From positions 1-42,648 of the forward strand of contig JACIWB010000007.1 of assembly GCA_014361245.1 (NCBI GenBank): 42,648 nt of DNA, given 5' to 3'. The notes beneath the pieces are model-generated. The model was not told where the DNA came from. It did no database searches and saw only the letters and a list, made by a program, of their open reading frames with translations. A program made the position numbers and the translations under genes. This document shows, piece after piece, positions 2,342 through 41,415 of the stretch; the stretch's first letter is position 1, and each line of letters starts with the position of its first letter. The stretch is from Thermoplasmatales archaeon. GTDB lineage: Archaea > Thermoplasmatota > E2 > UBA202 > JdFR-43.

Positions 2342-4083
2342 AAATTTTCCTCCTTTACAGACAATTCTCCAGGAGGCAAAACTTTCTGCAATTCTTCTAT
2401 GCTCACGCCAAAAATTTCTGCAAAACTTTTTGCAATTTTATTTGGATTTTCCCTACCAGGAATAAAAACAACCCATTTTTTAGCAAGCTTTTTAATCGCT
2501 GACGGAGGACCACCCATTATCTTTATCTCTCCTTTAATTTCAACCAATCCAACCGCAATTTCAAGAGCGCACCTTTCATAATTCCTTTTTCCTCTTATCA
2601 TAAATGCTCCAAGAGGCAAATACATGCCAGATTCAGCACTCTTTGAAACCTGCCACGGATAAACCCAGTAGGCATCGCAAGCAGTAAATTGACCCCATGC
2701 TTTAGAATATGAAGCCGCAAACTGACATGCTTCCTTAATTGTGTCTTCGCTTATCTTCAATGGCTTTCCATCCAAATCATGCGCCTTTATTATGCAGGAC
2801 GGCGCCCCATGCACATCTGCATGCACATATATATCATTTTCCTTCAGATATTTCTTTACAATTTTTTCATTGCTTCTTGCATCCTTTCCTCCAATAACAA
2901 TATTTCCATCTGAGGAGATGAACCACCTATAATTTTCAAACCAGTGTTTTTTTTTCTTTTTAACTTCTTCCTTAAATTTACTGATTCTAATTTTTGTTTC
3001 TTCTATTGCTTTCCTTGCCCCCTCTATCTTTTCCCTCATTTTTTTACTCTTTAAATATTTATCATTTGCATTTTCATAGACACTTTTTCTCGAATCTATC
3101 TTAACAATCATATTCTTCCCAATATAAGGTAATTCAACCTCTATAAATGGATACTTCTTCCTTTTTATTTTCTCCTTTTCTTCACCTTTCAATATTCTTT
3201 CAATTAATTCATAATTTGCAAAAATAGCATCTCCCTCTTCCCTATATCTCTTCTCTTCTTCTTCGAATTTCTTTATTGCTTCTTCCTGTTTCGCTATCTG
3301 TCTCTCTATTCTTTCTTTCTCTTCCTCCTTTTTTTCCTTTTCCTCCTTTTTTATTGAATGATAATATTCATCATATGCCTCGCTTATACTTTCAAAAAAA
3401 ATTTTCTCATATCCTTCATATCTTTTTAGGGAATAAGGTAAAACATCTATAAATTCAGAATTTTTTATAATCTGTGGCTCAAATTTTTTCCCCTCAATTT
3501 TTTCAATAAATTTTCTAAAATCTTCATAACTTTTTATTTCCTCTGCATATATTCTTGGAACACCGTTTTCTATTAAAAAATTTAAAATATCCTCTCTTTT
3601 CATGAAATCTTCTTCAGAAATCTTCTTTGGATTTTTTGCAGAAGGAAAAATGTATTTTTCTCCTGGCTTTAATATCCTGTCTCTCCATTTTTGATGTGTA
3701 ATAGGCAGAATTATTTTCCATTCTTCATCTAAAAGCAATATATTTCCAGGAGGAATTATTTCAATAGCCAGCCTGTATATTTTTTCCTTAATTATTTCAA
3801 TTAAAACAATTCTATCCATTTCATACTGCTCTATCTTTGCTATCTTTCCCCCTCCTAAATATTTCCTTAAAGCCATTGCGAAAGGAGGTGGCTGCTTCTC
3901 TTCCTTCTGCCTGTATTTACTCAAGCATATCCATTTCCCGCTTTTTATAAAAAGCTCTTTATCCTTTAAATTTATGAAAATTTCATCATTTTTCTGATAT
4001 ATCTTTCCTACATATCTGCCCACCATGCTCTGGAGCTCGCTAACAATTGCATATATATCGACAGCATCGAGCCTTTCCTTCAT
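2338..4083 (-). CDS. rqcH: RqcH/NEMF (Rqc2, NFACT family) ribosome-associated quality control factor
   Basis: The ATG start at 4083 gives 581 residues; it forms an ATGA overlap with the upstream peptidase stop, whereas the longer frame needs a TTG. NFACT-N spans about 1-200. Asp9 and the DR pair (Asp90-Arg91, in [10 protein letters not shown]) match positions needed for tRNA-dependent tailing in Rqc2/RqcH. A highly charged coiled coil lies near 245-300 and another near 345-380. NFACT-R (DUF814) follows from [20 protein letters not shown] with [20 protein letters not shown] and a C-terminal GGPPSAI segment. NFACT proteins bind obstructed large subunits and can extend the nascent chain C-terminally. 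Tailing by archaeal members is inference. Confidence 0.93.
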
Positions 4084-5741
4084 TTTATCTGCAAGCAAGG
4101 CATTCCAAGAAGAATATACTCCTCCAGCGTTTTGTAATCCTGCCAGTCATCAAGAGGAATTTCAATAATATAATCTTTTATTGCATCATAAAACATATCC
4201 CCCAGAAATTCTGATTCGTAATAATTCTTAAAAAATTCTATTTCAAGATACCCAGAAAGAGTTTTAGTTGTATTGTATCCACTGAGCCCATATGAAAGCC
4301 CGCTCGCCCCAATAAATGCAACAGCACCGCCATGTCTCTTCTTTAAAAATTGCCATCCAAGGCATTCATATGTTAAATTAAATTGGGCTGTATGGCATGC
4401 ATTTGCAAAAATTATTGGTAATTTCCTGTTGTAATAAGTATATACATCAAGTAAGGTAATTCCAATCCATTCATCGCTGTTGTGTGGATGCGTTGCCCAG
4501 CTATTTGGTGAGCCATGTCCAGAGAAATCTATGAAATCAATTCCCTTCATTATTTCCTTCCATATGTTTTTCCTGTTCAATGAGCCATCGCTTGCCTTCA
4601 ACTTTATGCATTCAAAATCATTCATCGTGCCAGCTACAATCTCATTCAAATATTCTCCTTCATTGACATCCTCTCTATCAAATGTATCTGTGTCTCCACC
4701 GCAAAAAAGAATTCTTTTAACTTTATCGCTATTTTCATATTCAATAACCTTTTTTATAACATTTTTTAATTCCGCTTTACTCCTACAAGCAAATCTTCCA
4801 ACATAAACATCTGGCATTAAATCAATTTTGTCATATCTTCCTTCATAATTATATTCAGCAAATATTCCATTCCCATTGCTGTCCCAGTCATCAAAAACAA
4901 TGCTTCCATTCTCATATTTATAAATATCTGCAAAGTATAAATCGCTTATAAATTCATTTTCTGTAAATGGGGGGACATGGTCAATTGCATATGCGTATCT
5001 AACTGGCATGAGCCATTTCTCATTAAACCCAAAAGCCCTTCCTCCTACAAGCATAACATATTTTATTCCCCATTCCTCAATTGCATTTTTAATGAAATAT
5101 TTCACTTTTTCAGCATCATCCCTGCCATTTCTCGCTACATTGCTACTGTAAATTTCATTCAACCCCACTGCTATTGTCTTTATTCCCTTGCTTTCCTTAT
5201 GCTGCTTCAATGCTTCAATCTCGCTCAGCCATGCATCTGGTGAAATTATTAAAAAATCATATAGCGAGGCACTTTCAGTTTTTTCTGGCAAAACATAATC
5301 AATTTTTACATCAAATTCTGCATGCAAAACTTCATTTCTCAAAGCATTGTATCTGAAAGGATAAAGATATAAGGAAAGGAAAATTACTCTTTCGCCATTG
5401 TTTATTCCTGCATGAATTTCATATTCATACCAGCTTGAAGGATAAAACTCATCCTTGCTATATATTTCGCCCTCTTTTATTTCAAATTTTTTTGGATAAG
5501 GAGCGGGAGCTGGCTTTATTTTTTCCTTTAATTTTATCTTTTCAACATTTTTTTCCTTTACTATTACCTCCTTTATTTCAGTTCCAAACGGAAATACATA
5601 TGTTTCATATTTATATGGCAAAACTGGATAGCCCTCTTTATAAATAAAATTTGTATAGCCAGCAAAGATATTTTCATTGCTTTTTTGAACTGCCACAGGA
5701 GCAATCATTACAAGAAATGTTATAAATGCTAAAACTTTCAT
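4080..5741 (-). CDS. Secreted C25 (gingipain-like) cysteine peptidase
   Basis: A 553-residue protein with a signal peptide ([18 protein letters not shown]). An N-terminal beta-rich propeptide-like region (about 25-150, [19 protein letters not shown]) is typical of C25 precursors. The clan CD catalytic pair is intact: His409 in [11 protein letters not shown] and Cys449 in [12 protein letters not shown]. Asp-rich segments such as [14 protein letters not shown] and [15 protein letters not shown] lie between. The protein ends with the catalytic domain, without adhesin repeats or a C-terminal anchor, so it is probably released. It is the first gene of an operon with rqcH and pelA (ATGA overlaps). 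A promoter-like TATA and a hairpin precede it. Activity is likely; cleavage specificity cannot be read from sequence. Confidence 0.87.
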
Positions 5742-16619: not shown

Positions 16620-18497
16620 ATGAAAAAATTATTAGTGCTTGTTGCTTTCCTTTTGTTTGTAAATTCAATAAACGCAATTCCCGTGAATGAATGGGAAAGA
16701 AATGTTGTCTATAGAAATATAACTCTTTTTGCTCCTGCAGTTGCGGAAATAAATGGAGAAAGCGTTGGAGTGCTTACTGAAATAAATGTTACGATGATGA
16801 ATGGCTCAGGGAATGTATTTGTAACAACAAAACCAATGACACAGCTTGATATGCAGGGCTCCGCAAAACTTGCTGTATTTGTTGCCTGCTCACTTGCTGG
16901 AAAAGATGCAAAAGATTATGACTTCATATTCAGGGTTGTTTCCTCCTCGCCCATCGTCGGCGGCCCATCCGCGGGCGCAGTGATGACAGTTGCTGCGGTT
17001 TGCTTGCTTGAGAATTTGAGTGTTAGCAATGATGTTATAATGACAGGAATGATAAATCCAGACGCAAGCATTGGCCCAGTTGGAGGAATTCTTGAAAAAG
17101 GAGAGGCTGCTGGCAGTGCGGGCTTTAAATATTTTTTAATTCCAAAAGGGCAGAGCATACAATATAAGACGGTTGAGGAAAAAATTGGCTTTTTAACAAT
17201 ATATAGGAGCGTGCCAGTTAATGTATCTGAAGAGCTTTATAAAAAATACGGGATGAATGTTATAGAAGTAGAGGATATAAATGAAGCACTTGCTTATTTC
17301 ACTGGTTTCATGTTTGAAGAGAAGAAATCCGATGTGCCAATAATATCTTCGGATTTTTATAGAGAAATAATGAAGCCAATGGAGGAAAAGGTTATAGAGG
17401 AAGCGGAAGAGATGTATGAAAAAGCTGAAGAAAATTTAAGCAAAACATCTTTACCATTAGGATGGCCATGGTATAATCCTCGTAGCATAGTTTCAAATTC
17501 TCTGGAAAATGCAAGAAAAAATCTTGATGAAGCAAGAAATGCATTATATAATGAATTTTATTATTATGGGATAAGCAAGGCATTTCAATCAAAAATAAAC
17601 TCACTTTTTGTAATATATGCCTGCAATTTTTACAATGGTAAAGGAATTGAAGAAATAAGGAAGGAAGTAGAAGAAATTGTTAATAAGAGCATTTCAGATA
17701 TGAAAAATGCGGAAATAAAAGGGCTTGAAAGTTTGCAATGCATTGGCTCAGCCCAGAAAAGAATTCTTGAAGCAGAAGAATATTTAAATAAAAGCGGAGA
17801 TGATCTGTCTGTGCTATATAACCTTGCATATGCAAAGGAGAGATGTTTAACTGCTTACTGGTGGATGAATTTGAGCAATTATTTCAATGAGAGTTATAAT
17901 ATAAATGAAACATGGATAAAGGAAATTGCAGAAGAATATTATGAATATGCCCAGGATATTTTTTCATATGCAAATATTTTGAGCCAAGAGACGGGTTATT
18001 CAAGCAATTTTATAAGTAAGGCAAATGAAGCTCTTTCAAGAGCTAATGAGCAAAAAGAAGAATTTCCCTCAGCAAGCTTATTTAATTCTCTTGAATCAAT
18101 AGCAAATTCAAATCTTGCAATAGAAATGATTGGTGTAAATGATTTGAGTGATAAGTTGAATAGAACAAGAGAAATGGCAAGTTATGCAATTCAGAAAGCA
18201 AGAGATGCCGGAATAGAGCCAATATTAGCAGTAAATTATAATGAATTTGCAAGAAGCATTGAAAGTGATGCATTAAATTCACTGGTTTATTATAAATATG
18301 CTTACATAATAGCAAATACTCTTTGCCTTTCAAAAGGATACAATGCTATAGGAATTGAAAAAGTAAATATAAATGCACCACTTCCCGAAGAAAATAAAGA
18401 AACTAAAGATAAAAATCAGTTATTTGCTGTGGCATTTATTTCTTTAATCGGTGGAATTTTAGTTGGTATTCTTTTCGCGACAAGGAAATATGAATAA
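16620..18497 (+). CDS. Secreted, membrane-anchored Lon-like (S16-fold) serine protease, COG1750 type
   Basis: A 625-residue protein with a signal peptide (MKKLLVLVAFLLFVNSINA). The Lon-type proteolytic domain (about 30-210) has the catalytic Ser117 in GGPSAGAVM and Lys160 in GPVGGILEKGEAAG, 43 residues apart as in Lon. There is no AAA+ ATPase domain. A long helical region rich in acidic residues and NxS/T sequons follows, then one membrane helix near the C-terminus (LFAVAFISLIGGILVGILF) and a short RKYE tail. The protease would face the outside. Recalled as the archaeal COG1750 predicted protease; targets are unknown. Confidence 0.87.
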   Translation: MKKLLVLVAFLLFVNSINAIPVNEWERNVVYRNITLFAPAVAEINGESVGVLTEINVTMMNGSGNVFVTTKPMTQLDMQGSAKLAVFVACSLAGKDAKDYDFIFRVVSSSPIVGGPSAGAVMTVAAVCLLENLSVSNDVIMTGMINPDASIGPVGGILEKGEAAGSAGFKYFLIPKGQSIQYKTVEEKIGFLTIYRSVPVNVSEELYKKYGMNVIEVEDINEALAYFTGFMFEEKKSDVPIISSDFYREIMKPMEEKVIEEAEEMYEKAEENLSKTSLPLGWPWYNPRSIVSNSLENARKNLDEARNALYNEFYYYGISKAFQSKINSLFVIYACNFYNGKGIEEIRKEVEEIVNKSISDMKNAEIKGLESLQCIGSAQKRILEAEEYLNKSGDDLSVLYNLAYAKERCLTAYWWMNLSNYFNESYNINETWIKEIAEEYYEYAQDIFSYANILSQETGYSSNFISKANEALSRANEQKEEFPSASLFNSLESIANSNLAIEMIGVNDLSDKLNRTREMASYAIQKARDAGIEPILAVNYNEFARSIESDALNSLVYYKYAYIIANTLCLSKGYNAIGIEKVNINAPLPEENKETKDKNQLFAVAFISLIGGILVGILFATRKYE

Positions 18498-19060: not shown

Positions 19061-19190
19061 TCTTTAATGTATAAATATAGCACATTAATGCAGTATGGAA
19101 TACATCAATATCAAAAAATTTGTTTTTTCATATTAATTCCATCAAAAAACTTTTTATAAAGAAAATTTTATAGTTTTGGAGGCAGATAAA

Positions 19191-22100
19191 ATGAAAGGAA
19201 AAATCGTATTAAGCATTGGGGTTGTGCTGGCAATGTTAGTGAGTTCTATAGCACCTATAGCAAGCTCTTTTGAGCTAGGAGAAACTATTACAAAAGAGCC
19301 AAGAGAAGTAAGAATGAAATTTGATTTCCTTATGCCAAAATTGAACAATGTGATGCTTTCTGGAAAAACTTATTCAGTTGTTGATATGGGATTGCCTACT
19401 ATAGGAAATGCTGGGGAGCCAGAAATACCAGTAAAGCCAGTAAATGTATTACTTCCATATGGAGCTGAACTAAAGGAAATAAAAGTTATTGCGGATGAGC
19501 CAATTTTGATTGGAAAAGCCAAAATTACTCCAAAGCCATCATTAATTCCCATTGGAGAAAATGACTTTGTTTTAGTTGCAGAAGAGAATGAAGAAATATA
19601 CAATTCAGACGAAATTTATCCTGGCTATCTATACAAGGAAGTAACAACTCAATATTTCAGGGGCTTTCCAGTAGTTACAATAAATTTATATCCAGTTCAG
19701 TGGAATCCATTGACTGAGGAGTTATATCTCTATCCAAACATGGAACTTGTTGTTGAATTGAAAGATGGGCAAGTAAATGAGCTATTCAGAGGAACAGAAG
19801 TTGATAGGCAGGAAGTTACAAAAATGGTTGATAATCCAAGAGAAGTTTTAACATATCCATTGCTTCCAAGCCATTCATGTGAATATGTTATTATAACAAA
19901 TGAAGCGTTGAAAAATGCACCAGGCCCATATAATTTCCAGGCATTGGCAAATTCAAAAATTGCAAAAGGAATGAATGCAACAATTGTAACTGTTGAATGG
20001 ATATATTCAAACTTTGGTGGAGTAGATAATCCAGAAAAAATAAGGAATTTCATAAGATGGGCGTATCAGGAATGGCATACTCAATATGTATTGCTTGGAG
20101 GGGATGCAGATGCTGGAAATGAAATTGTTCCAGTAAGGAGGCTTTGGAATGAAACATATTTTGGAAATTACAAAGCACACATACCATCTGATTTATACTA
20201 TGCATGCTTAGATGGAAGTTATAATAGTGATGGCGACAGCTACTGGGGCGAGCCAACTGATGGAGAAGGAGGAAAAGATGTTGATTTAATTGCAGAAGTA
20301 TATGTTGGCAGGGCACCAGTTGATAATGCAGCAGAGCTTGCAAACTTTGTAAGAAAAACACTTGAATATGATAGCTCGCAGGATCCTTATCTAAATAAAG
20401 TTTTGCTTTGTTCGGAATATGTTGGATTTGGAGGAATTGCAAATTATGGCTCAGTTTTTAAGGAAGAAATGAGAAATGGCTCAAATGCAAATGGCTACTA
20501 TACAGTTGGTATTCCCGGAGATGAATACACTATTTTAGCATTGCATGACAATGAAACCTTTACTTGGAGTGTTGAACAATTAAAAGAGATAATAAACAGT
20601 GGCATCCATATAATAAACCATTTGGGACATGGAACAATCTCTACTCTAATGAAAATGGTTTCAAGCGATATAGCATCTTTGGAAAATGAAGGAAAATATT
20701 TCTTCCTATATACGCAAGCATGTCTTTCTGGAAACTTTACTTATAATGACAGCATAGCGGAAAAACTCGTTAAAAGTGAGAATGGAGCATTTGCAGTTAT
20801 AACAAATGCTGATTATGGTTTTGGAAGAAGATGGACAACCGATGCCCCAAGCCAGGCATATGATAGAGAATTCTTTGATGCGGTATATGGAGAAAATATA
20901 AGGGAGATAGGAAAAGCAAATCAGGATTCAAAAGAAGATAATTTATATCGCTTGCAGGAAGACGGGATGAGATGGTGCTATTATGGATTAAATCTGCTTG
21001 GTGACCCTGAAATCGCAATAAAGGCGGGAGCAGTATATAATCATGATGTAGGCGTAAAATCAATAAATGAGCCAAAGGGAAAAATATCAACAGGAACGCA
21101 TGCTATAAATGCAACAATTGAAAATTCAGGATTGAGCAATGAAGTTAGAGTCGATGTATTTTGTTCCATATACAAGCTCGACAAGGTCATCCACTTCTTT
21201 GATGATATGGAAAGCGGCTCAGCCAACTGGACGGTAATAGACAAAGATGGCGACGGCCATACCTGGACAATTTCTACAGCAAGATATAAGAGTCCAACCC
21301 ACAGCTTTAGATGCACGGATTATACTACATACCTCCCGAATTCAATAGATGAACTTGTTTCCAAGGCAATTGACCTTAGCTCAGTTGATAATGCGATTTT
21401 GGAATTCTGGTATTGGGCGAAGAATGACTGGCTCACATATGCACACATGCCCTATGGTGACTATCTTACAGTTTATTTGAGCAGTGATGATGGTGTAACA
21501 TGGGTGGAAGCAAAAACTTACATTACTTATACCTCCGAAAATTGGTGGTTAATGAGTATCCCGATAGAAAAATATGTTAATTTGACAAGCCATGTAAGAA
21601 TTAAATTCACATTTGTATCGGATGCCCTCACTCATTATGAAGGAACGTATATTGACGATGTTGTTGTATATTCATGGGTACCTACAATAATGTATGAGGA
21701 TGATACAAGAATATTAATAGACCCAGGGGAAAGAGAATTTGTTGAATTTGCTTATAACTTCTCATTTGAGGGCTTTTATGCAATAAATGTAACAGCATTC
21801 ATTCCAGATGATGAATATCCAAGAAATAACTGGAAGAACATAACAATTGAAGTAAGAAATATAAAAGACGCTGGAGTAATTTCAATAAATTCTCCAGATA
21901 CAAATATTCCTCCTGGAAGTTATACAGTGAATGCAACAGTAACAAACCTTGGAACAATTGATTTAACTAACCTGCCAGTTAATTGCACAGTTTATTACAT
22001 AAATCAATCAACAATATTGGATGAGGACTTTGAATTTTTAACACCTCCAAACTTCAGAACAGGTTGGCTTGTAGAAGATACTAACGGAGATGGAACAAAA

Positions 22101-25100
22101 TGGGTTACATCAACATCCTATCCATATGATGGTTTCAATTGTGCTTTCTATCAATCTCATGCATCAAATACAGCAAGTGATTGGGTATTTACACCCGCCT
22201 TAAACCTTAAAGGAGGAGCAAGTTATACTCTCTCATTCTGGTATAGAGCATACTCAGCATCTTATCCAGCAAGTATGCGAGTTATGATTGGCTCCTCTCA
22301 AAGTTCATCTGGAATGACAACATTGCTGTGGAATAATTCTTCAATAAAAACAACTACTTACACCCAGGCAACAATTTCATTCAGTGTAGAATCGACAGGA
22401 ACATATTATATCGGCTTCCATAGCTACGGGGGAAGCAACGCTAATAGAAGAGTACATGTCGATAAAATATTATTGAATGAAGTTGCTTATGAAATCATCT
22501 ACTCAAACGAGATAAATATAGCAAGTTTGCCAGTGAGGAAGTCAGTGAATGTCGAATTCTCATCGGTTGGTTTTTCAAGAGAAGGAGATTATATAATAAA
22601 TGTAACAACAAAACTTGCTGATGATGAAGATACAACAAATGATTTAAAAAGCAAAACATTGAAAGTTATAAGCATTCAGGATGCAGGAATTAAACAGATT
22701 AACTATCCAACAGAACTGATAACAACAGGAAATGCAAATGTAAATCTAACATTAAAGAACTATGGAAATGTTCCATTAAATAATGTTGGGGTAAATTGCT
22801 TAGTTTATAGTGTAGGCACAACACTTGTAAAAGAAGGATTTAATTCAAGAAGCAGCTCCACTGCTTCGCCTGGCTGGACATTCAGCGGTGTTGGAAGGGG
22901 TACATCAACAGCTGCTCCTAGCCCGCCATATTATCTGTTGGCTACTCCTACTGGAGTAAAATATGTAATTAATAACTCAGTTCCATTTGGAAGCGGAAAC
23001 TATGCGATGGAGCTATGGATTGCAAAAGACCAGGCAGCAATATCTGAGAGGGTGGAGTTCGTGAATATAAGCTATGGAAATTCATCAACTGGGCCATGGA
23101 ATACGCTGTTTAGCATCAATTACACTTTATTAAATGCAATGGAAGTTGAAAAGTGGTACAGGGTAGTGGTTGATTTATCACCCTGTGCTAACGGAAATAG
23201 ATGGATAAATATAAGTGCAACTCTTACAAAAACAAGAATCAGAATTGATGATGTATGGATATACAGCACAAATTTAGTTAGCTACGGCACCACTACAGTA
23301 AATCTTGATGTTGATGAGGAAAAATATGTTGAAATTGCTCCTTGCAATTTTGGAGAAGGAATTTACGATATAATTGCTACAGTGTCAGCAGATGCGGATA
23401 TTTCAAATAATTTCTTATTCTTCAAAGCAAGAGCACACAACCTGAGCGATTTAGGTGTATTGTCCATAAATTCTCCGCCCGCAATAATTCCAACTGGATG
23501 GCAAGCGGGAAATGTAACAGTCAAAAACTTTGGAAACATTCAAAAAACAAACATACCAGTAAATCTATCAATTTATATACCAGAGACAACAATAATAAAT
23601 GAAACCTTTGAAGGTTTGACACCTCCCAACTTCAGCCCGGGATGGGCAATTGAAGACGGCGGAGATGTTGGCGGAGGCAGTGGCAATAGCGTTTATCTAA
23701 AATGGGCTTCCTATAATAACTCGCTTTATGCTCATTCCTCACCAACGATGGCGTATTTCTATTTTGGAACCTCACCAAATAAAGATGCAAATGATTGGCT
23801 ATTCACAAATGCTACATATCTTGAAGCAGGAAAGGCATACTGGTTAAAATTCTGGTATAGGGTAAGTCAACCATATATGCCAGCAAAACTCGATGTATGG
23901 GTTGGCTCCTCTCAAAGCTCATCTGGAATGACAAAGAAAATATGGGATAATTCATATATTAATAACACTGTGCATAATGAAGAGAGCATTATATTCACCG
24001 TCCCAGCGGATGGCGCATACTACATCGGATTCCATGTGTATAGCTATGTGCAGCGTGCTGCAGCAATATATGTAGATGATATACAGCTTATATCCTTGAT
24101 ACCTGTGTATAGTGAAGAAAAGACAATAACATCTCTTGCTCCGGACGAAGAAACTTATCTGAATTTTGGACCAATTTATGCATATCCAGAAGGAGAATTC
24201 ATATTGAATGTCAAAACAACTCTTGAAGATGAAAATGTAACTAATGACGGAAAACACATGGTTGTTAAAGTTTGGAATATAGACGATGCTGGAACAAAAT
24301 CAATAAATTATCCACCATCAGGGCTGTTATTGCTACCACCTGACCAATCAATTAGAGTTAATGCAACAATTACAAACTATGGAAATGTTCCACAGCCAAA
24401 TATTCCAGTAAATTGCTCGATATCCAAACTCACATACTCCCCGATTCTTGAGGAGGACTTCGAAAGCGGTTTGCCATCTGGCTGGATAATTGAAAATGGA
24501 GGAGCCACAGCATATTATCCAGGCACAAACATACCCGCAACATGGACAGACCAAAACCCAGGACACAGAGTTCCGGAAGGCGGTTGCAGGGGCAGATTTA
24601 TGATTGTAGATAATGACTATGCTGGATGGATAATTATGGAGGAAGGGCTTGTTACAAAGGATATAAGTTGTGCTGGCCAGAGTAAGGTTATACTTGAATT
24701 TGACCATGCTTGGCTGGGAGGACTGGCTACTGAGAGAGGATTAGTGCAGGTATGCTGGTATGATAGCCATGAGATGGAGTGGGTAAACACTACTATCGCA
24801 ACTTTCACAGGCCATGATATAGATATAGGTCATAAAACATATGATATCACTTCGCTTGCAGCTGGTAAGACAATAAGAATAAAATGGTATTATAACAGCT
24901 ACAGAGATTATGGTTTCTGGTGGATGGTGGATAATGTAAGAATTGGTGGTGAGCCAGCATATGATCTAAAATTCTGGGACGAAAAAACAGTTAATGATTT
25001 GGACCCAGGAGAAGAGGCATTTGTTGAATTTGAACCATGGAACTGGTTCAGCAGTGGAGCGGGATGGTATGCAATAAATGTGACAACAATGCTTGATGGA

Positions 25101-28100
25101 GATGAATTTCCATCTAATGACACAAAAACAACAATAGTATTCCTACAGGGTGCTTATGATGTAGAGGTAAGGGCAATTGAAAGCCCATTGCCAGGAATAT
25201 ATACAACAGGAACATCCTTTGCCGTGAATGCTACAGTAAAGAATGTTGGAGCAGAAAATCTGACAGATATTAATGTAATTTGCACAATAAGAAATTCAGC
25301 TGGCGATATTGTATTTACAGAAGAAAAAATAGTTTCAACATTAGCTTCTGGACAGCAAACAATTGTTGGATTTTCATCCTGGACAGCAAATATCGAGGAC
25401 ACATACACTATAAATGTTACCGCATCAATATATGGAGATGCAAACCTTGATAACAACTATAAGGAAATATCAATTGTAGTAAATAATATTCCAGATGCAG
25501 CAGTTGTTTCAATAAATTATCCAACAGGAACACAATTTACTGGAAGCTATGCAGTTAATGCAACAGTTGCAAACTTTGGAAATGTTCCAATTGGTTCATT
25601 TAATGTAAATTGCACAATAAGAAATTCAGCTGGCGATATTGTATTTACAGATGAAGAAACAGTAAGTGGCCTAGCTGTTGGACAGAAGGCATATGTAATA
25701 TTTGCTCCATGGACAGTAAGCATTGAAGACACATATAAGATAAATGTGACAACAATGCTTGTTGGAGATGAAGATAACAGTAACGATTATCAGGAAATAA
25801 CAATTATAATAAACGATATAGATGATGTAGGGATGACATCAATTAATTATCCACCACCAATAGTTCCTGTTGGAGAGCATATAATAAATGCAACAGTAAA
25901 GAACTTTGGAAATATTCCGAAGGAAAACATCCCAGTAAATTGCTCCGTTTATCTTGTTTCCAGCCCAGTAACCATCTTACAGGAAGGATTTGAAGCCAAC
26001 CTAGAACCGCCCGCCGGCTGGAACGAGGTGGATGTGGTATACACTGGTGGAGATTGGAGCACAAGCGGAGCAACCACAGCATGCAGCCCATATTACGGAT
26101 ATTACATGGCAAGATTTAATTCTGGAAGCAGCGCCGCTCCAGGATCAGCGACGAGATTGTATCCCGACAGAATTGATTTCACGAGTTATTCAAATGTTAT
26201 TCTAGCTTTCTGGATGTACCATGACACAAATAATCCTGCCAAGAAAGACAGAATAGTTATCCAATATTCACTTGATAATACAACATGGAATAACATAACC
26301 TCAATTTATAGATACGATGGTTCAAGTGGTTGGAAGCTTCATACCATAGATTTATCTCCTTATGTAGCGGGTAAAAATGCATGGGTAGCATTTATGGGAG
26401 TAGCACAGCAGGGAGGACATATCTACATAGATGAGGTATCCATTATTAGCGGAACACTCATTCCTGTTTTCAGTGAAGAAAAAATAGTATCATATTTAGA
26501 TGCTGATGAAGAAAGCTACTTGACATTTACTCCAATAGATGCTTCTGTTGAAGGAATAACATTCCTGCTTAGTGTTAAAACCAAACTTGCTGGAGATGAA
26601 AATACAGGAAATGATGAAATACTCATGCTAGGAAAAGTATGGAACTTTGAGGATGTAGGTGTGGTGTCAATAAATTATCCAGCACAATTGATTGGGCCAG
26701 GATTGCATTCAGTAAATGCAACAGTTGCAAACTATGGAAATGTCCCAGTAGCAAATATTAAAGTTAATTGCTCAATAACACAAATATACGGTGATATCAA
26801 AATAATGGAAGGATTTGAAACGAGCTGGCCACCAGCAGGATGGAAGAGTGTTATAGTCAGTGGATCTGCTCCGTGGTCAAGATCTGGCATTTCTCACACT
26901 GGAAGCTATGCAGCATATTCACCATATCAGGCAGGTGAAAGATATCTTGCAACAGATGTAATTTCTCTTGGAAGTGGAGACTATACGCTTGAATTTTGGT
27001 TATACAGGACTCTTAACTCAATTACCGGAGAATATTTAAATATAAGCGTTGGACCGAGCCAAAATGGACCATGGACAACAGTGTTGAGCTTGGATTATAA
27101 TGCAATAAATAACATAAGTGGATATAAGAAATTCACAGTAAACTTGTCATCATACGCTAATCAGGATATATCGATAAGATTCAACCATCTAACGAAAGGA
27201 GGAGCATCAATATGGCTGGACGATATAGTTGTGTATCGTGAGGGAGCTGGATTAGTTTTCGAAAATGAAAAAGAAATAACATATATGCAAGTGGGAGAAC
27301 AGAAACATGTATTGTTTGATGCATTTAACTTCGAAGCAGGTCAATACTTGGTAAAAGTAAAAACAATATTAAGCGAGGATGAAAACATTTACAACGATGC
27401 GAAGGAAAAAGAATTTTTAGTTTTCACAATTATAGATGCTGGAGTTGTTGCAATAAATTATCCAACAGCTGGCGTATATATGCCAGGAAACTATTCTGTT
27501 GTAGCAACAGTAAAGAACTATGGAACAGTAACAGAGACATTTGATGTGAAATGCGATGTATATAAAGTCAGAAATGTAACCGCTTTATATGAAGATGTTG
27601 AAGGCGGATGGGATGGATGGGCTGTTTATGAACCGAGTGGAATAAATCTATGGCACATAAGCACAAGAAGATATGTAAGTGGAAGTCATTCATTTTATTG
27701 CGGGGACGAGCTAACAGGAAGCTACTATCCAAACATAGCTAACTTTTTAATATCCCCGGGAATAAATGTAGCTGGTGCAGTAAAAGTTACCCTAAGTTTG
27801 AAAGCATGGATTGATGTAGAAGATAGGTATGACTATTTCTATATCACGGTGAGCCCAGATGGTACCAATTTCTACATTGTCCAGGTAATTTCAACTTCTT
27901 CACGCGAATGGAGGAGTTTATCCTATGACATCACTAACTATGCATCAAGTGGAACAATATGGCTTGGCTTTATCCTCCAGAGCGATTCAGCTGTGCAATA
28001 TGAGGGAGTATATCTTGACGATATTGTAGTAACAAAACAGTTAAGGGATAAGGTCTATACAGAAACAGTTACAGTGTATAATTTGCTTAGCGGGGCTGAA

Positions 28101-29363
28101 AAGCAAGTAACATTCCCACCATTTACAGCAGAGGAGAACAGCGTTTATGTAATAAATGTAAGAACACTGCTTGCTGGGGATATAAATCCAGGAAACGATA
28201 CCAAAGAGGTAACAATTAGCACAGTTAATCTTCCACCAGTTACAACATGCAGTTGTGTTGGTTCAATGGGAGAAAATGGATGGTATGTTGGACCAGTTAC
28301 AATCTATTTATCTGCAACAGACCCACAAGAAGTAAGGGCAACATACTATCGCATAAATGGAGGAGCATGGCAAACATACACTGGCCCAGTAAGTGTTTCA
28401 ACTGAAGGATTGTATAAAGTTGAATACTACTCAGTAGATACCTTTGGAAGCACTGAAGAAATTAAATCATGCAGCTTTGGAATAGCTACTTCAATGCCAA
28501 TAACAGAATGCATAATATCTGGCTTGCTTGGAGATAATGGATGGTATAAGAGCGATGTGCAGATTACACTTAAAGCAAATGCATACATATGTGGAGTAAA
28601 AGCAACATACTATCGCATAGATGGAGGAGCATGGCAGGAATATACTGGAACATTTACATATAGCGGAGAAGGAAATCATATTATAGAATACTACTCAATA
28701 AGCAACGCTGGAATAGTTGAAACACCAAAATCAACATCATTCAAGATAGATAAGACAAGCCCAACAGCAAAAGTTATATATCCAAATGGTGGCGAGGTTT
28801 TAGGAGGAATAATAACAATAAGATGGACAGCAAGCGATAACATTGGCATTGCAGGAATTGATTTGCTGTATAGCAGTGATGCTGGATTAACATGGAATGT
28901 TATAGCAAGCAATGTTGCAAACACTGGCTCATATAACTGGAATGTTGCTAGCTTGCCATACGGAAGCAACTACATGGTTAAAGTAGTTGCAAAAGATAAC
29001 GCAGGAAATGTTGCAGTCGATACTTCAGATGGAACATTTACAATAAGCATGCCAAGTCCACCAACAGTAAGCATAATTAAACCAAGAAATGCCTTGTATA
29101 TCTTTGATAGAGAAATAATTCCACTGCCAATACCAGTAATAATTGGAGGAATAACAGTTGAAGCAACAGCAAGCTCAAGCATAGGCATTGCAAAAGTAGA
29201 ATTCTATATAGATGGAGCACTTAAATTCACAGATACAACCGAGCCATACTCGTGGCTCTGGGATGAAAGGGCAATAGGAACACATGAAATAAAAGTAATT
29301 GCCTACGATACCACTGGACAGAAAGCAGAAGACAGAATAAGCGTATTCATAATAAACTTCTAA
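19191..29363 (+). CDS. Giant secreted gingipain-like protein: C25 peptidase with ten CARDB units and inserted adhesin-like domains
   Basis: The ATG at 19191 follows GGAGG (19178-19182), giving 3390 residues; a TTG at 19176 lies upstream of that site. A signal peptide (KIVLSIGVVLAMLVSSIAPI) is followed by a C25 propeptide-like region (about 30-220) and a C25 domain with His480 in NHLGHGTIS and Cys511 in TQACLSGNF. Ten CARDB-like units start near residues 617, 891, 1162, 1418, 1697, 1988, 2100, 2210, 2486 and 2747, each with a (V/I)NATV.N.GN-type strand. Eight hold a cleaved-adhesin/jelly-roll-like insert (EDFE..GW...). Two OmpL47-like modules (about 3015 and 3102) and two Ig-like domains (about 3193 and 3289) end the protein. 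No C-terminal anchor or sorting motif is seen. Confidence 0.9.
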   Translation: MKGKIVLSIGVVLAMLVSSIAPIASSFELGETITKEPREVRMKFDFLMPKLNNVMLSGKTYSVVDMGLPTIGNAGEPEIPVKPVNVLLPYGAELKEIKVIADEPILIGKAKITPKPSLIPIGENDFVLVAEENEEIYNSDEIYPGYLYKEVTTQYFRGFPVVTINLYPVQWNPLTEELYLYPNMELVVELKDGQVNELFRGTEVDRQEVTKMVDNPREVLTYPLLPSHSCEYVIITNEALKNAPGPYNFQALANSKIAKGMNATIVTVEWIYSNFGGVDNPEKIRNFIRWAYQEWHTQYVLLGGDADAGNEIVPVRRLWNETYFGNYKAHIPSDLYYACLDGSYNSDGDSYWGEPTDGEGGKDVDLIAEVYVGRAPVDNAAELANFVRKTLEYDSSQDPYLNKVLLCSEYVGFGGIANYGSVFKEEMRNGSNANGYYTVGIPGDEYTILALHDNETFTWSVEQLKEIINSGIHIINHLGHGTISTLMKMVSSDIASLENEGKYFFLYTQACLSGNFTYNDSIAEKLVKSENGAFAVITNADYGFGRRWTTDAPSQAYDREFFDAVYGENIREIGKANQDSKEDNLYRLQEDGMRWCYYGLNLLGDPEIAIKAGAVYNHDVGVKSINEPKGKISTGTHAINATIENSGLSNEVRVDVFCSIYKLDKVIHFFDDMESGSANWTVIDKDGDGHTWTISTARYKSPTHSFRCTDYTTYLPNSIDELVSKAIDLSSVDNAILEFWYWAKNDWLTYAHMPYGDYLTVYLSSDDGVTWVEAKTYITYTSENWWLMSIPIEKYVNLTSHVRIKFTFVSDALTHYEGTYIDDVVVYSWVPTIMYEDDTRILIDPGEREFVEFAYNFSFEGFYAINVTAFIPDDEYPRNNWKNITIEVRNIKDAGVISINSPDTNIPPGSYTVNATVTNLGTIDLTNLPVNCTVYYINQSTILDEDFEFLTPPNFRTGWLVEDTNGDGTKWVTSTSYPYDGFNCAFYQSHASNTASDWVFTPALNLKGGASYTLSFWYRAYSASYPASMRVMIGSSQSSSGMTTLLWNNSSIKTTTYTQATISFSVESTGTYYIGFHSYGGSNANRRVHVDKILLNEVAYEIIYSNEINIASLPVRKSVNVEFSSVGFSREGDYIINVTTKLADDEDTTNDLKSKTLKVISIQDAGIKQINYPTELITTGNANVNLTLKNYGNVPLNNVGVNCLVYSVGTTLVKEGFNSRSSSTASPGWTFSGVGRGTSTAAPSPPYYLLATPTGVKYVINNSVPFGSGNYAMELWIAKDQAAISERVEFVNISYGNSSTGPWNTLFSINYTLLNAMEVEKWYRVVVDLSPCANGNRWINISATLTKTRIRIDDVWIYSTNLVSYGTTTVNLDVDEEKYVEIAPCNFGEGIYDIIATVSADADISNNFLFFKARAHNLSDLGVLSINSPPAIIPTGWQAGNVTVKNFGNIQKTNIPVNLSIYIPETTIINETFEGLTPPNFSPGWAIEDGGDVGGGSGNSVYLKWASYNNSLYAHSSPTMAYFYFGTSPNKDANDWLFTNATYLEAGKAYWLKFWYRVSQPYMPAKLDVWVGSSQSSSGMTKKIWDNSYINNTVHNEESIIFTVPADGAYYIGFHVYSYVQRAAAIYVDDIQLISLIPVYSEEKTITSLAPDEETYLNFGPIYAYPEGEFILNVKTTLEDENVTNDGKHMVVKVWNIDDAGTKSINYPPSGLLLLPPDQSIRVNATITNYGNVPQPNIPVNCSISKLTYSPILEEDFESGLPSGWIIENGGATAYYPGTNIPATWTDQNPGHRVPEGGCRGRFMIVDNDYAGWIIMEEGLVTKDISCAGQSKVILEFDHAWLGGLATERGLVQVCWYDSHEMEWVNTTIATFTGHDIDIGHKTYDITSLAAGKTIRIKWYYNSYRDYGFWWMVDNVRIGGEPAYDLKFWDEKTVNDLDPGEEAFVEFEPWNWFSSGAGWYAINVTTMLDGDEFPSNDTKTTIVFLQGAYDVEVRAIESPLPGIYTTGTSFAVNATVKNVGAENLTDINVICTIRNSAGDIVFTEEKIVSTLASGQQTIVGFSSWTANIEDTYTINVTASIYGDANLDNNYKEISIVVNNIPDAAVVSINYPTGTQFTGSYAVNATVANFGNVPIGSFNVNCTIRNSAGDIVFTDEETVSGLAVGQKAYVIFAPWTVSIEDTYKINVTTMLVGDEDNSNDYQEITIIINDIDDVGMTSINYPPPIVPVGEHIINATVKNFGNIPKENIPVNCSVYLVSSPVTILQEGFEANLEPPAGWNEVDVVYTGGDWSTSGATTACSPYYGYYMARFNSGSSAAPGSATRLYPDRIDFTSYSNVILAFWMYHDTNNPAKKDRIVIQYSLDNTTWNNITSIYRYDGSSGWKLHTIDLSPYVAGKNAWVAFMGVAQQGGHIYIDEVSIISGTLIPVFSEEKIVSYLDADEESYLTFTPIDASVEGITFLLSVKTKLAGDENTGNDEILMLGKVWNFEDVGVVSINYPAQLIGPGLHSVNATVANYGNVPVANIKVNCSITQIYGDIKIMEGFETSWPPAGWKSVIVSGSAPWSRSGISHTGSYAAYSPYQAGERYLATDVISLGSGDYTLEFWLYRTLNSITGEYLNISVGPSQNGPWTTVLSLDYNAINNISGYKKFTVNLSSYANQDISIRFNHLTKGGASIWLDDIVVYREGAGLVFENEKEITYMQVGEQKHVLFDAFNFEAGQYLVKVKTILSEDENIYNDAKEKEFLVFTIIDAGVVAINYPTAGVYMPGNYSVVATVKNYGTVTETFDVKCDVYKVRNVTALYEDVEGGWDGWAVYEPSGINLWHISTRRYVSGSHSFYCGDELTGSYYPNIANFLISPGINVAGAVKVTLSLKAWIDVEDRYDYFYITVSPDGTNFYIVQVISTSSREWRSLSYDITNYASSGTIWLGFILQSDSAVQYEGVYLDDIVVTKQLRDKVYTETVTVYNLLSGAEKQVTFPPFTAEENSVYVINVRTLLAGDINPGNDTKEVTISTVNLPPVTTCSCVGSMGENGWYVGPVTIYLSATDPQEVRATYYRINGGAWQTYTGPVSVSTEGLYKVEYYSVDTFGSTEEIKSCSFGIATSMPITECIISGLLGDNGWYKSDVQITLKANAYICGVKATYYRIDGGAWQEYTGTFTYSGEGNHIIEYYSISNAGIVETPKSTSFKIDKTSPTAKVIYPNGGEVLGGIITIRWTASDNIGIAGIDLLYSSDAGLTWNVIASNVANTGSYNWNVASLPYGSNYMVKVVAKDNAGNVAVDTSDGTFTISMPSPPTVSIIKPRNALYIFDREIIPLPIPVIIGGITVEATASSSIGIAKVEFYIDGALKFTDTTEPYSWLWDERAIGTHEIKVIAYDTTGQKAEDRISVFIINF
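22289..22320 (+). repeat. Near-identical 32-nt segment shared by adhesin-like inserts 2 and 4
   Basis: The segment recurs at 23903-23934 with one mismatch and encodes GSSQSSSGMT in both copies. Confidence 0.8.
25281..25321 (+). repeat. 41-nt identical segment in CARDB unit 6 (partner in unit 7)
   Basis: Identical to 25611-25651, exactly 330 nt away; it encodes CTIRNSAGDIVFT. This is much more conserved than the surrounding repeats. Confidence 0.9.
25611..25651 (+). repeat. 41-nt identical segment in CARDB unit 7 (partner in unit 6)
   Basis: Second copy of the segment at 25281-25321. Confidence 0.9.
28338..28372 (+). repeat. 35-nt repeat in the two OmpL47-like modules
   Basis: Repeated at 28602-28636 with one mismatch; the two copies encode ATYYRINGGAWQ and ATYYRIDGGAWQ. 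Confidence 0.85.
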
Positions 29364-31624: not shown

Positions 31625-32750
31625 ATGAAAATAAAATATATTGCATCTGGTCTTCTTTTGTTTTGTTTAGTAATATTAATACCATCCACGATAAAAGCAA
31701 CTCCCCAATGCTCCAATTCACATAAATGGGGATGAGGATTTTGCAAACAAAGCAGGCAGTGAAAGATGGCGGGGCAATGGCACAGCAACTAATCCTTACA
31801 TAATCCAAAATTATGAAATAGATGGTGAGGGCAAAGCTTATTGCATATGGATAGAAAATACAAGTGTTTATTTTGTGATAAGAAACTGCGCATTTTATAA
31901 CGCAATATCATCTTGGCCAGCCCCGTGCGGCGTGGGAATATGTCTGAAAAACGTTACTAATGGAAGATTGGAAAACAACAAATGCTATGGCAATATTTAC
32001 GGCATACGCCTTGTTGCTTACTCAAGCAATAACACCATTACAAACAACGACTGCTATGAGAACAATAAAGGCATACGCTTGGACGACTCAAGCAACAACA
32101 ATGTAGCAAGTAACAATTGCTATAACAATTCCGAGGGAATATATCTAGATGATTCGAGCAACAACATCGTAGCAAATAACAAATGCTACGGTAATCTTGA
32201 TGGCATATCTTTATATTCCTCTAGCGAAAAAAATATTATAGCAAACAATACCTGTTACGAGAATTTTTTTGCTGGCATTCACCTTTATCACTATTTAAAG
32301 CCCGGCTACCCAAGTAACAATAGCATAGAAAACAACAAATGCTATAAAAATCGTGAAGGAATATACCTCTCTTCATCGCACAACAACAGCATCACAAACT
32401 GCAGTGTTTATGACAACAGTTACGGTTTTCGTATTTCTTCTTCAAATATTCAAATTCACTATTGCAGTATCTATGGAAATAAAGAATACGGAATTTCTAA
32501 TGAAAACTTGGAAGGAGAATATGAAGTAAATGCAACATACTGCTGGTGGGGGCATGGAAGCGGGCCATTTCATGAAACAAATCCCGGCGGCCAAGGAGAT
32601 AATGTAAGTGATAAAGTTTTATTTATTCCCTGGCTTGAAAAGACAAGTGAAGGAGGCAATACTTCTCCTGAGAAGAAAGGAATTCCTGGCTTTGAACTAT
32701 TTGCAATTGTTGGAGCAGTAGCATCCATATTGAATAGGAGGAAAAAATGA
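31625..32750 (+). pseudogene. NosD-like right-handed beta-helix surface protein, frameshifted after the signal peptide
   Basis: An ATG at 31625 starts a signal peptide (KYIASGLLLFCLVILIPS) that runs out of frame after a CCCC tract at 31703-31706. With one C removed, the frame reads ATPNAPIHINGDEDFANKAG and joins the downstream reading frame, which continues to 32750. The body has about seven 22-23-residue beta-helix repeats with NN..(V/I).NN.CY.N..GI.L patterns (NosD/pectate-lyase-like). The C-terminus is GIPGFELFAIVGAVASILNR plus RKK, a PGF-type archaeosortase sorting signal. Either a real frameshift or an assembly error. The next gene overlaps as ATGA. Confidence 0.85.
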
Positions 32751-40149: not shown

Positions 40150-41415
40150 TTAAAGTTTAATGCTTTGCAAAAAATAGTTTTTCAAAAATTCATCCCATTG
40201 AGTAAATTTTGAAAAAGAAAGGTCTTCATAGTTGGATGGCAATTTTTTTAAAAGTATTGGCTTATTATAAAGAAATTCTTCCTCTGGGAAATATATACTC
40301 AATCCATTATCGAGCCCAGAAATTGTTTTTTTACAGAGAATAGCATCATTTATGCTTTTCATAATATCCTCGCAAATATTTTTTATTTCATCATTTTTAG
40401 AATAATTTTTTAGATTTTCAAGAAAATTGTATAAATCTATGTTGCAATCATATGCATATATTTCAATTGATAGCATATCATATATTGGATAGAAAATATG
40501 GTATTTTGGACTCCATTTACCGTATTCGTTTGAATTAATTCTTGCATATTTTACTGCCTCCATATCATTTATTATTGTTTTTGATAATTCATCCAATCCC
40601 TTTACAATTTTTTCTAACTTACTTAAATTTATTGCTGAAAGAGTTGTGTTTATTGTTACTATATTCAACTTTTTAAACGGCAGGATATCGAAAAATTTTG
40701 CTATAAAATTATTGCATGGATGATAAACCTTTGACTCAAAAAATTTTACAGTTTCTACAGCAAATTTTTCAGCATCCTCACGGAGAGTAGATATTACTTT
40801 CACATCTGGCCATATATCCAAAAATGGATTATCAGTTTCCATTGCCACAAAATAGTTTGCATAAGGAGAAATTTCATATGCTACCTCTATCATTCCTTGT
40901 AAGCATGCTACAAAACTAACTAACTCGATTTTCCTTTTTCCATCCTCAGTTATATTCTTCAAAACATTTCCCATTGAGGGAGTAGTTATAAGATTAAAAT
41001 TTCTGTATCCATACCTATAATCAGGGCATATGCCTTGCCATCCAGGTCCAACAGAAATTATCAGGAGCGCATACCGTTTTGCTGGATAATTTTCAATTGA
41101 AAATCTGCAGAATTTTTCAAGCGTCTCACTTTTTCCAGTATCCGATTCTCTTTCCCATGGAAGCTCTATTAAATTGTCCTTTTCAATTTTATACAGAAAT
41201 GTATCATTATCAGCGAATCCATCAACGAGCGCGACTATGTTAATCCTATCATTTTCTACCCTGCTAAGATTCTGTAGATATAATTTTGCATTATTACACA
41301 TTTTGTTCTCTGTAGCAATATAAAACATCAGTGTCCATTCCTTGCCAGATTTGCCAGCATTTAATGGAATAACAGAAAGAATTATTATTATCGCAAATAG
41401 AGAAGAAAGCTTCAT
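40150..41415 (-). CDS. Secreted clostripain-like (C11) protein, catalytic His replaced
   Basis: 421 residues with a signal peptide (MKLSSLFAIIIILSVIPL) and the clostripain opening WTLMFYIATENKM. Where active relatives have an HGSGW-type motif, this protein has SVGPGWQGI (Val122 at the His position). The later Cys171 in FVACLQGMIEVAYEI is kept, 49 residues away. It is probably not a normal peptidase and may be a pseudoenzyme or binding protein. The start follows GGAGG and lies 1 nt after the nop5 stop, so it is translationally coupled to nop5. Confidence 0.82.
   Translation of the reverse strand: MKLSSLFAIIIILSVIPLNAGKSGKEWTLMFYIATENKMCNNAKLYLQNLSRVENDRINIVALVDGFADNDTFLYKIEKDNLIELPWERESDTGKSETLEKFCRFSIENYPAKRYALLIISVGPGWQGICPDYRYGYRNFNLITTPSMGNVLKNITEDGKRKIELVSFVACLQGMIEVAYEISPYANYFVAMETDNPFLDIWPDVKVISTLREDAEKFAVETVKFFESKVYHPCNNFIAKFFDILPFKKLNIVTINTTLSAINLSKLEKIVKGLDELSKTIINDMEAVKYARINSNEYGKWSPKYHIFYPIYDMLSIEIYAYDCNIDLYNFLENLKNYSKNDEIKNICEDIMKSINDAILCKKTISGLDNGLSIYFPEEEFLYNKPILLKKLPSNYEDLSFSKFTQWDEFLKNYFLQSIKL

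Follow-up and report, generated by a model that had tools for sequence, protein, structure and literature searches.

Introduction

In the RTX adhesins AhLap, FrhA and MpIBP, Ig-like split domains project a ligand-binding domain (excerpts of PMC12077191 and PMC10865825). In the Porphyromonas gingipains RgpA/Kgp and in HagA, cleaved adhesin domains vary and are shuffled (excerpts of PMC5266723). Among archaea, the hypervariable Ig protein VARTIG of the Thermococcales is a variable protein with CARDB-like Ig domains (excerpts of PMC8416519). Clostripain and gingipain genes have both been reported from MBG-D archaea, and the extracellular peptidases that this group expresses include C25 peptidases (excerpts of PMC6461988).

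Here we describe a giant gene in a 42,648-nucleotide stretch of DNA from an uncultured Thermoplasmatales archaeon (contig JACIWB010000007.1), referred to below as the window. We read its product, with a probability of about 0.78, as a secreted C25 protease on a CARDB stalk whose nested heads are exchangeable cassettes in fixed sockets. The closest known design is the RTX split domain and the closest known shuffling is that of the gingipain adhesin domains. As described in the RTX excerpts, an Ig-like stalk domain is interrupted by a sideways-projected domain and split domains stand among uninterrupted Ig-like extenders; the predicted layout of the giant is alike in both respects. The interruption and a two-strand ribbon are seen in our model of one unit, and ligand binding is putative. 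Unlike the RTX adhesins, which are bacterial and have few split domains per protein, the giant is archaeal, is built on CARDB, carries eight split domains in one protein and is fused to a C25 protease. Doubly nested units, found in its relatives, and cassette-like exchange are further differences; word searches of PMC12077191 and PMC10865825 found no passage on exchange of the projected domains. None of the 12 Pfam matches of the giant at E up to 1 is to an RTX-type family. By analogy, the giant appears to work like an RTX split-domain adhesin but is not one.

The giant resembles the gingipains in having cleaved-adhesin-type domains behind a C25 propeptide and a C25 catalytic domain. Whereas theirs are linear modules with DUF2436 and short binding motifs (PMC5266723, in excerpt), the heads are here nested in CARDB, and Pfam finds no match to DUF2436 in the giant. 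For VARTIG, the excerpts of PMC8416519 describe variation at the level of gene modules and do not describe a nested domain. The first-pass annotation of this DNA, made from the sequence, took the nested architecture as not known to have been described. We found no paper on nested CARDB units in the open-access literature, which does not show that they are absent from print, and the Ig-like split domains of RTX adhesins have been published (excerpts of PMC12077191 and PMC10865825).

Results

The giant gene and its protease part

The gene (19191..29363, plus strand, as are all features of the giant given below) is the longest ORF in the window. The ORF opens at a TTG (19176-29363). We preferred the ATG at 19191, which gives a product of 3390 aa, because a paralogue in the same genome (L009) has the same MKGK start and because the N-terminus resembles a signal peptide. 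Pfam matches a Propeptide_C25 domain at 19311..19766 (PF08126, residues 46-197; E 2.9e-13, 49.8 bits) and a Peptidase C25 catalytic domain at 19884..21014 (PF01364; E 1.5e-63, 215.8 bits), and both matches place the protein in the C25 family. A motif search located HLGHG at residue 477 and QACLSG at residue 509 of the giant; these are the putative sites of the catalytic His and Cys. The C-terminal 377 residues (28230..29360) consist of OmpL47-type repeats and Big_7 Ig domains (NF047446, PF17957). They are 90% identical to those of L009, and despite this identity the Pfam and NCBIfam matches revealed no recognisable anchor or sorting motif in them.

Identity between the window giant and L009 varies strongly along the protein. 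It is 80% in the catalytic domain and 95% in unit 7; the ends and unit 7 span 75-95%, and the nested units described below diverge faster (33-59%). At the DNA level unit 7 (25488-25817) is 95% identical to its L009 counterpart, compared with 71% for unit 6 and 53% for unit 8. This excess may reflect recent conversion or strong constraint.

The genome, 1.48 Mb in 105 contigs, has 23 matches to the C25 profile. Within the window lies a second, short C25 peptidase at 4080-5741 on the minus strand (PF01364, 187 bits). The window also has a weak clostripain-type (C11) match at 40150-41415 on the minus strand (42.3 bits against a cut-off of 550). A gene for a NosD-like right-handed beta-helix (31875-32750, plus strand) lies downstream of the giant. 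At 16620-18497 (plus strand) a 625-residue protein is encoded in which Pfam matches only a Lon-type S16 proteolytic domain (residues 50-188), with no match to an AAA domain. Genes for aNOP56, an eRF1-type protein and NFACT are among the genomic neighbours and point to an archaeal host.

Jelly rolls are nested inside CARDB units

Ten CARDB-type units occupy positions 21039-28229; units 1-5 and 8-10 are nested and units 6 and 7 are uninterrupted. Unit 1 (21039..21860) has an insert at 21174-21683 (NF038128, 33.2 bits; Cleaved_Adhesin, 23.4 bits) and unit 2 (21861..22673) one at 21996-22490 (NF038128, 70.7 bits; MAM, 27.2 bits). The insert of unit 3 (22674..23441; insert 22818-23270) is diverged, and no Pfam or NCBIfam domain exceeds its cut-off there. 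Units 4 (23442..24278; insert 23577-24095) and 5 (24279..25151; insert 24426-24953) match NF038128 with 41.8 bits and, below the cut-off, 26.6 bits. Units 6 (25152..25487) and 7 (25488..25817; 94.5% aa identity to L009 unit 7) score 26.0 and 23.5 bits against PF07705, whose cut-off is 22.7. Unit 8 (25818..26645; insert 25968-26456) was modelled. It is followed by unit 9 (26646..27428; insert 26781-27245; NF038128, 43.2 bits) and by unit 10 (27429..28229; InhA-like_MAM, 43.4 bits), which is nested once.

The first-pass annotation had proposed that adhesin-like domains sit inside CARDB folds at a constant position, with units 6 and 7 as uninterrupted internal controls. We trained HMMs for the N-half, the insert and the C-half on the eight nested units alone, leaving out units 6 and 7. 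The order N-half, insert, C-half was found in 8/8 nested units. Units 6 and 7 gave N-half (E 2e-7 and 2e-15) and C-half (E 5e-13 and 2e-15) joined by a 6-residue turn; both are valid controls. In a reverse test, an HMM was built from 15 uninterrupted units of the window and of seven relatives' loci, including sister units of the same proteins. It matched 41 of 45 nested units as two pieces, 139-175 residues apart, and gave 0/900 two-piece matches to shuffled sequences. In unit 8 the two pieces are model positions 2-48 and 49-100. Unit 3 of the window is one of the four misses; its C-half scores no better than E 0.016.

The Pfam CARDB model stops at position 44-46 in units 2, 5 and 8 and begins at 45 in unit 10; these matches are weak (E 0.02-0.2) and below the cut-off. 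Units 1, 3, 4 and 9 have no Pfam CARDB match. No nested unit reaches the PF07705 gathering score, the best being 15.6 bits from half-matches alone; units 6 and 7 pass it over most of the domain. We therefore call the nested units split CARDBs on the strength of the three-HMM order, the uninterrupted-unit HMM and a natural empty unit (see below), not of Pfam. The ends of the HMM pieces and of the Pfam half-matches agree on a constant insert position, the C-C' hairpin at CARDB model position ~45-48. The insert begins with a (D/E)xFE..GW motif that is visible in the alignment, as had been noted, and the predicted separation of the two halves is real. Its length is narrower than the 135-190 residues first estimated: HMM boundaries give 151-176 residues for the eight window units.

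Of the solved CARDBs, 2kl6, 2l0d and 3idu are hit by the profile of the uninterrupted units; the matches extend across both halves and are weak (E 0.007-0.014). The profile made from 45 nested units gives weak CARDB matches in the halves (2l0d at 12-44, E 0.005; 2kl6 at 51-99, E 0.02). Units 6 and 7 thus resemble the known CARDB family (PF07705; solved as 2kl6/2m8x, 3idu and 2l0d). In contrast to the solved members matched, which are uninterrupted, the eight nested units of the window hold an entire domain in the C-C' hairpin.

The AlphaFold2 model of unit 8, made from 45 alignment rows, has a mean pLDDT of 93.9 and a pTM of 0.86. In it, a single strand (35-56) comprises host strand C and the insert's first strand, and another (201-227) comprises the insert's last strand and host strand C'. 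Since the strands run on into the head, the model predicts that the head projects sideways on a stiff two-strand ribbon. The host strands fit a seven-strand Ig-like sandwich. Fold matches cover mainly residues 49-271, and no CARDB chain is among the listed matches of unit 8 or of the doubly nested L009 unit described below; the host sandwich has no fold match of its own because the insert fills the match list of the structural aligner. The case for one host sandwich therefore rests on sequence, the continuous strands and the natural empty unit. Together, the three HMMs, the reverse test, the Pfam half-matches and the unit 8 model confirm the nesting of a jelly roll within CARDB, always at the same position.

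The inserted head

The insert is a jelly roll of the choice-of-anchor J / MAM / cleaved-adhesin type. NF038128 (choice_anch_J) exceeds its cut-off of 30 bits in 6/8 window inserts; unit 5 falls short and unit 3 has no match. Against solved structures, the profile of 45 nested units matched, over the insert, Kgp K3 (E 3e-16) and Kgp K1 (E 2e-14), and also reelin, immune inhibitor A and neuropilin. In the unit 8 model the insert superposes on the meprin beta MAM domain (4gwm; Z 18.7, rmsd 2.1, 153 residues aligned) and on Kgp K2 (3km5; Z 17.8, rmsd 2.3, 151 aligned), which places it in the MAM/cleaved adhesin fold. Its sequence and fold are thus those of choice-of-anchor J (NF038128), MAM (PF00629) and reelin subrepeat domains. 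The difference lies in the setting: in this genome and in relatives such domains are also found outside CARDB units, whereas here they are nested.

Filled, empty and doubly filled units in relatives

We examined seven giants: that of the window, its paralogue L009, three from another species of the genus (L041, L042, L043) and two from other genera of the family (L044 and L045, the latter a fragment on a 3859-base contig). Loci contained within larger stretches were skipped in the unit HMM scans. Ten units, arranged in the same order and with units 6 and 7 empty, make up the arrays of the window giant, L009, L041 and L042. L043 has nine units, and its unit 2 is empty too. In that natural empty unit the two host halves are contiguous, and they are 84% and 82% identical (aa) to those of the filled unit 2 of L009.

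The last unit is doubly nested in 5/7 giants (L009:8563-9885, L041:1018-2334, L042:940-2277, L044:1189-2553 and L045:149-1459). The A-B loop (N-half positions 13-16) houses the second head, which is absent from unit 10 of the window and from the last unit of L043. Unit 4 of L044 (minus strand) holds two jelly rolls in tandem within one socket. A model of the doubly nested L009 unit (12 rows; pLDDT 82.4, pTM 0.55) is less sure than that of unit 8. Its first insert resembles Kgp K3 (Z 16.2) and its second the meprin MAM domain (Z 16.8). In both models the chain passes into and out of the head on neighbouring strands.

Nested units also occur further afield. In the class, at least 20 of 80 genomes have a match that spans positions <=7 to >=258 of a 267-position model (a span criterion, counted by eye). 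In the phylum, 33/389 genomes pass E 1e-25, at most six candidates being scored per genome. The three HMMs found the order N-half, insert, C-half in loci of eight families, two within the class (f1 and f4) and six outside it (f21, f35, f39, f44, f45 and f48). A C25 protein from Cloacimonadota (L089) gave no match to the unit HMMs at E below 0.01.

Hosts and inserts have different histories

Trees were built separately for hosts and inserts; both are short and partly unresolved. The host tree, from which one host row of 60 was left out as shorter than 75 residues, arranges the units largely according to position. Units 1, 5 and 10 keep this arrangement in the insert tree, their inserts following the hosts, and units 2, 3, 4, 8 and 9 do not.

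Two pairs of inserts within single giants are near-identical (98-99% DNA identity) in hosts that are 65-73% identical. Between units 2 and 9 of L041, 103/294 nucleotides differ in the host and 11/480 in the insert (Fisher 1.4e-36). At fourfold sites with the same residue the figures are 8/23 and 3/67. Between units 3 and 5 of L044, 84/306 host and 7/444 insert nucleotides differ (Fisher 4e-28), with 6/28 and 1/66 at fourfold sites. In both pairs the near-identical block starts at the FE motif of the insert and stops just past its DD motif, and these edges in the DNA suggest homologous exchange between heads. The AU test does not reject the hosts of L044 units 3 and 5 as sisters (p 0.6). This pair alone therefore leaves room for duplication of a whole unit with later divergence of the host; its fourfold sites speak against that.

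The converse is seen between giants. The unit 8 hosts of L009 and L041 are 87% identical and their inserts 53% (41/309 and 194/411 nucleotides differ; Fisher 4e-23). In unit 9 of L041 and L042, 59/291 host and 256/456 insert nucleotides differ. As controls, units 1, 2 and 3 of L009 and L041 show no significant difference between host and insert (Fisher 0.62, 0.39 and 0.08); in unit 5 of these giants the difference is significant (Fisher 1.1e-4), with the insert more diverged than the host. Applied to the insert data, the AU test rejects monophyly of the four unit-8 inserts (p 2.7e-7), whose hosts form a clade with support 99, and of the three unit-9 inserts (p 1.5e-6), whose hosts form a clade with support 95. 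Reciprocally, monophyly is rejected by the host data for five hosts with grouped inserts (3.5e-5; this group was named after seeing the insert tree). All relatives come from draft assemblies, and such assemblies can go wrong at near-identical repeats; the evidence for the unit-8 and unit-9 swaps among L009, L041 and L042 is, however, not confined to repeats of this kind. The uncoupling is partial, since host and insert identity still correlate across all 1081 pairs (r 0.59).

The window's own unit-9 insert has its closest counterparts in the unit-4 and unit-8 inserts of L009 and L041 (61% and 60% aa identity; hosts 44-45%). In the insert tree it groups with these and not with the unit-9 inserts of the same two giants. 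The window thus shows the same uncoupling, at greater age.

Discussion

We suggest that the giant joins a secreted cysteine peptidase of gingipain type to a tethering stalk of ten Ig-like CARDB units. Unit order is constant, hosts sort by position and many inserts are uncoupled from them; we therefore regard the CARDB as a fixed socket and the head as an exchangeable cassette. The two strands of the C-C' hairpin would continue into the head, forming its first and last strands. With two adjacent strands as the only predicted contact between head and host, the stalk could stay intact when a head is replaced, lost or doubled. The socket would keep its place in the array while heads are copied or swapped between sockets, and now and then a head would be lost, doubled in one socket or put into a second socket, the A-B loop. 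The agent of exchange may be gene conversion or ectopic recombination. The heads are putative binding domains that could fasten the protease to cell surfaces or to particles of protein or polysaccharide, and their exchange may be a means of varying binding.

These readings depend on the units being single split domains. Were they instead linear strings of a separate half-CARDB, a jelly roll and another half-CARDB, with an incidental likeness to CARDB, the sub-threshold Pfam scores of every nested unit and the weak match of the host to solved structures would be expected. Separate half-domains had been named beforehand as the outcome that would overturn nesting. The unit 8 model shows none; it is a confident one-piece model with strands running through the junctions. 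The halves lie contiguous in the empty unit 2 of L043, and two-piece matches occur in nested units and not in shuffled sequences. We rejected this reading as extremely improbable. Growth of the array, past and continuing, by whole CARDB units duplicated together with their nested domain had been proposed in the first-pass annotation. The overall correlation of host and insert identity, the agreement of the two trees at units 1, 5 and 10 and the sister position of the window hosts of units 4 and 8 (support 96) favour it. Against it, the window giant, L009, L041 and L042 are identical in the number and order of units and in the empty units 6 and 7, the hosts sort by position, and the insert data reject the unit-8 and unit-9 clades; moreover, units 2 and 9 of L041 share an almost identical insert in 65% identical hosts. 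As a general account, whole-unit growth is thus distinctly unlikely, and it is not supported given the uncoupling of inserts 2, 3, 4, 8 and 9. We rejected it for units 8 and 9 and kept it for units 1, 5 and 10 and for the origin of the array, which must at first have been made by duplication of whole units.

Uncoupling could also arise by uneven evolution, with inserts constrained in some pairs and fast in others, and not by exchange. The faster divergence of the nested units, relative to the ends and unit 7, in the comparison of the window giant with L009 is consistent with this. However, two separate pairs show a sparing of silent sites that is bounded at the domain junctions, which protein-level constraint does not produce, and the fourfold sites of L041 units 2 and 9 differ far less in the insert than in the host. 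The unit-8 inserts of L009 and L041, for their part, fall into different insert clades and not into one diverged clade. Uneven evolution is accordingly a very improbable explanation. A further proposal concerns function: the heads might be structural spacers or protease-resistant filler that bind nothing. No binding site has been identified, and similarity of fold shows no function. Yet gingipain adhesin domains, MAM domains and CBMs all belong to this family; the strands by which the chain enters and leaves the head are neighbours, as in the projected ligand-binding domains of RTX adhesins (PMC10865825, in excerpt); and a pure spacer needs no exchange of diverged versions. We consider a spacer role unlikely.

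Exchangeable heads in fixed sockets remain our preferred reading, and a bolder version of it can be put forward tentatively, as possible but doubtful. The CARDB hairpin may be the dedicated socket of a combinatorial adhesin system in which heads move between sockets, between proteins and even between loops, with recombination edges set by the conserved motifs FE...GW and Y(I/V)DD. Putative binding specificity would then be re-dealt while stalk and protease stay fixed, and domain nesting would give these archaea an equivalent of antigenic or tail-fibre variation.

A nested domain can be exchanged without disturbing the stalk, which is one reason why nesting may be favoured over a linear string in adhesins. 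The versions of one scaffold that occur naturally, whether filled, doubly filled, empty or swapped, form a ready test set for domain-insertion engineering. They also bear on how sediment archaea, from which expressed C25 peptidases have been reported, hold their proteases to varied substrates. Exchange of plugged-in heads could let a microbe alter what its protease sticks to; should this exchange prove adaptive, it would represent a type of diversification system that is, to our knowledge, little known in archaea.
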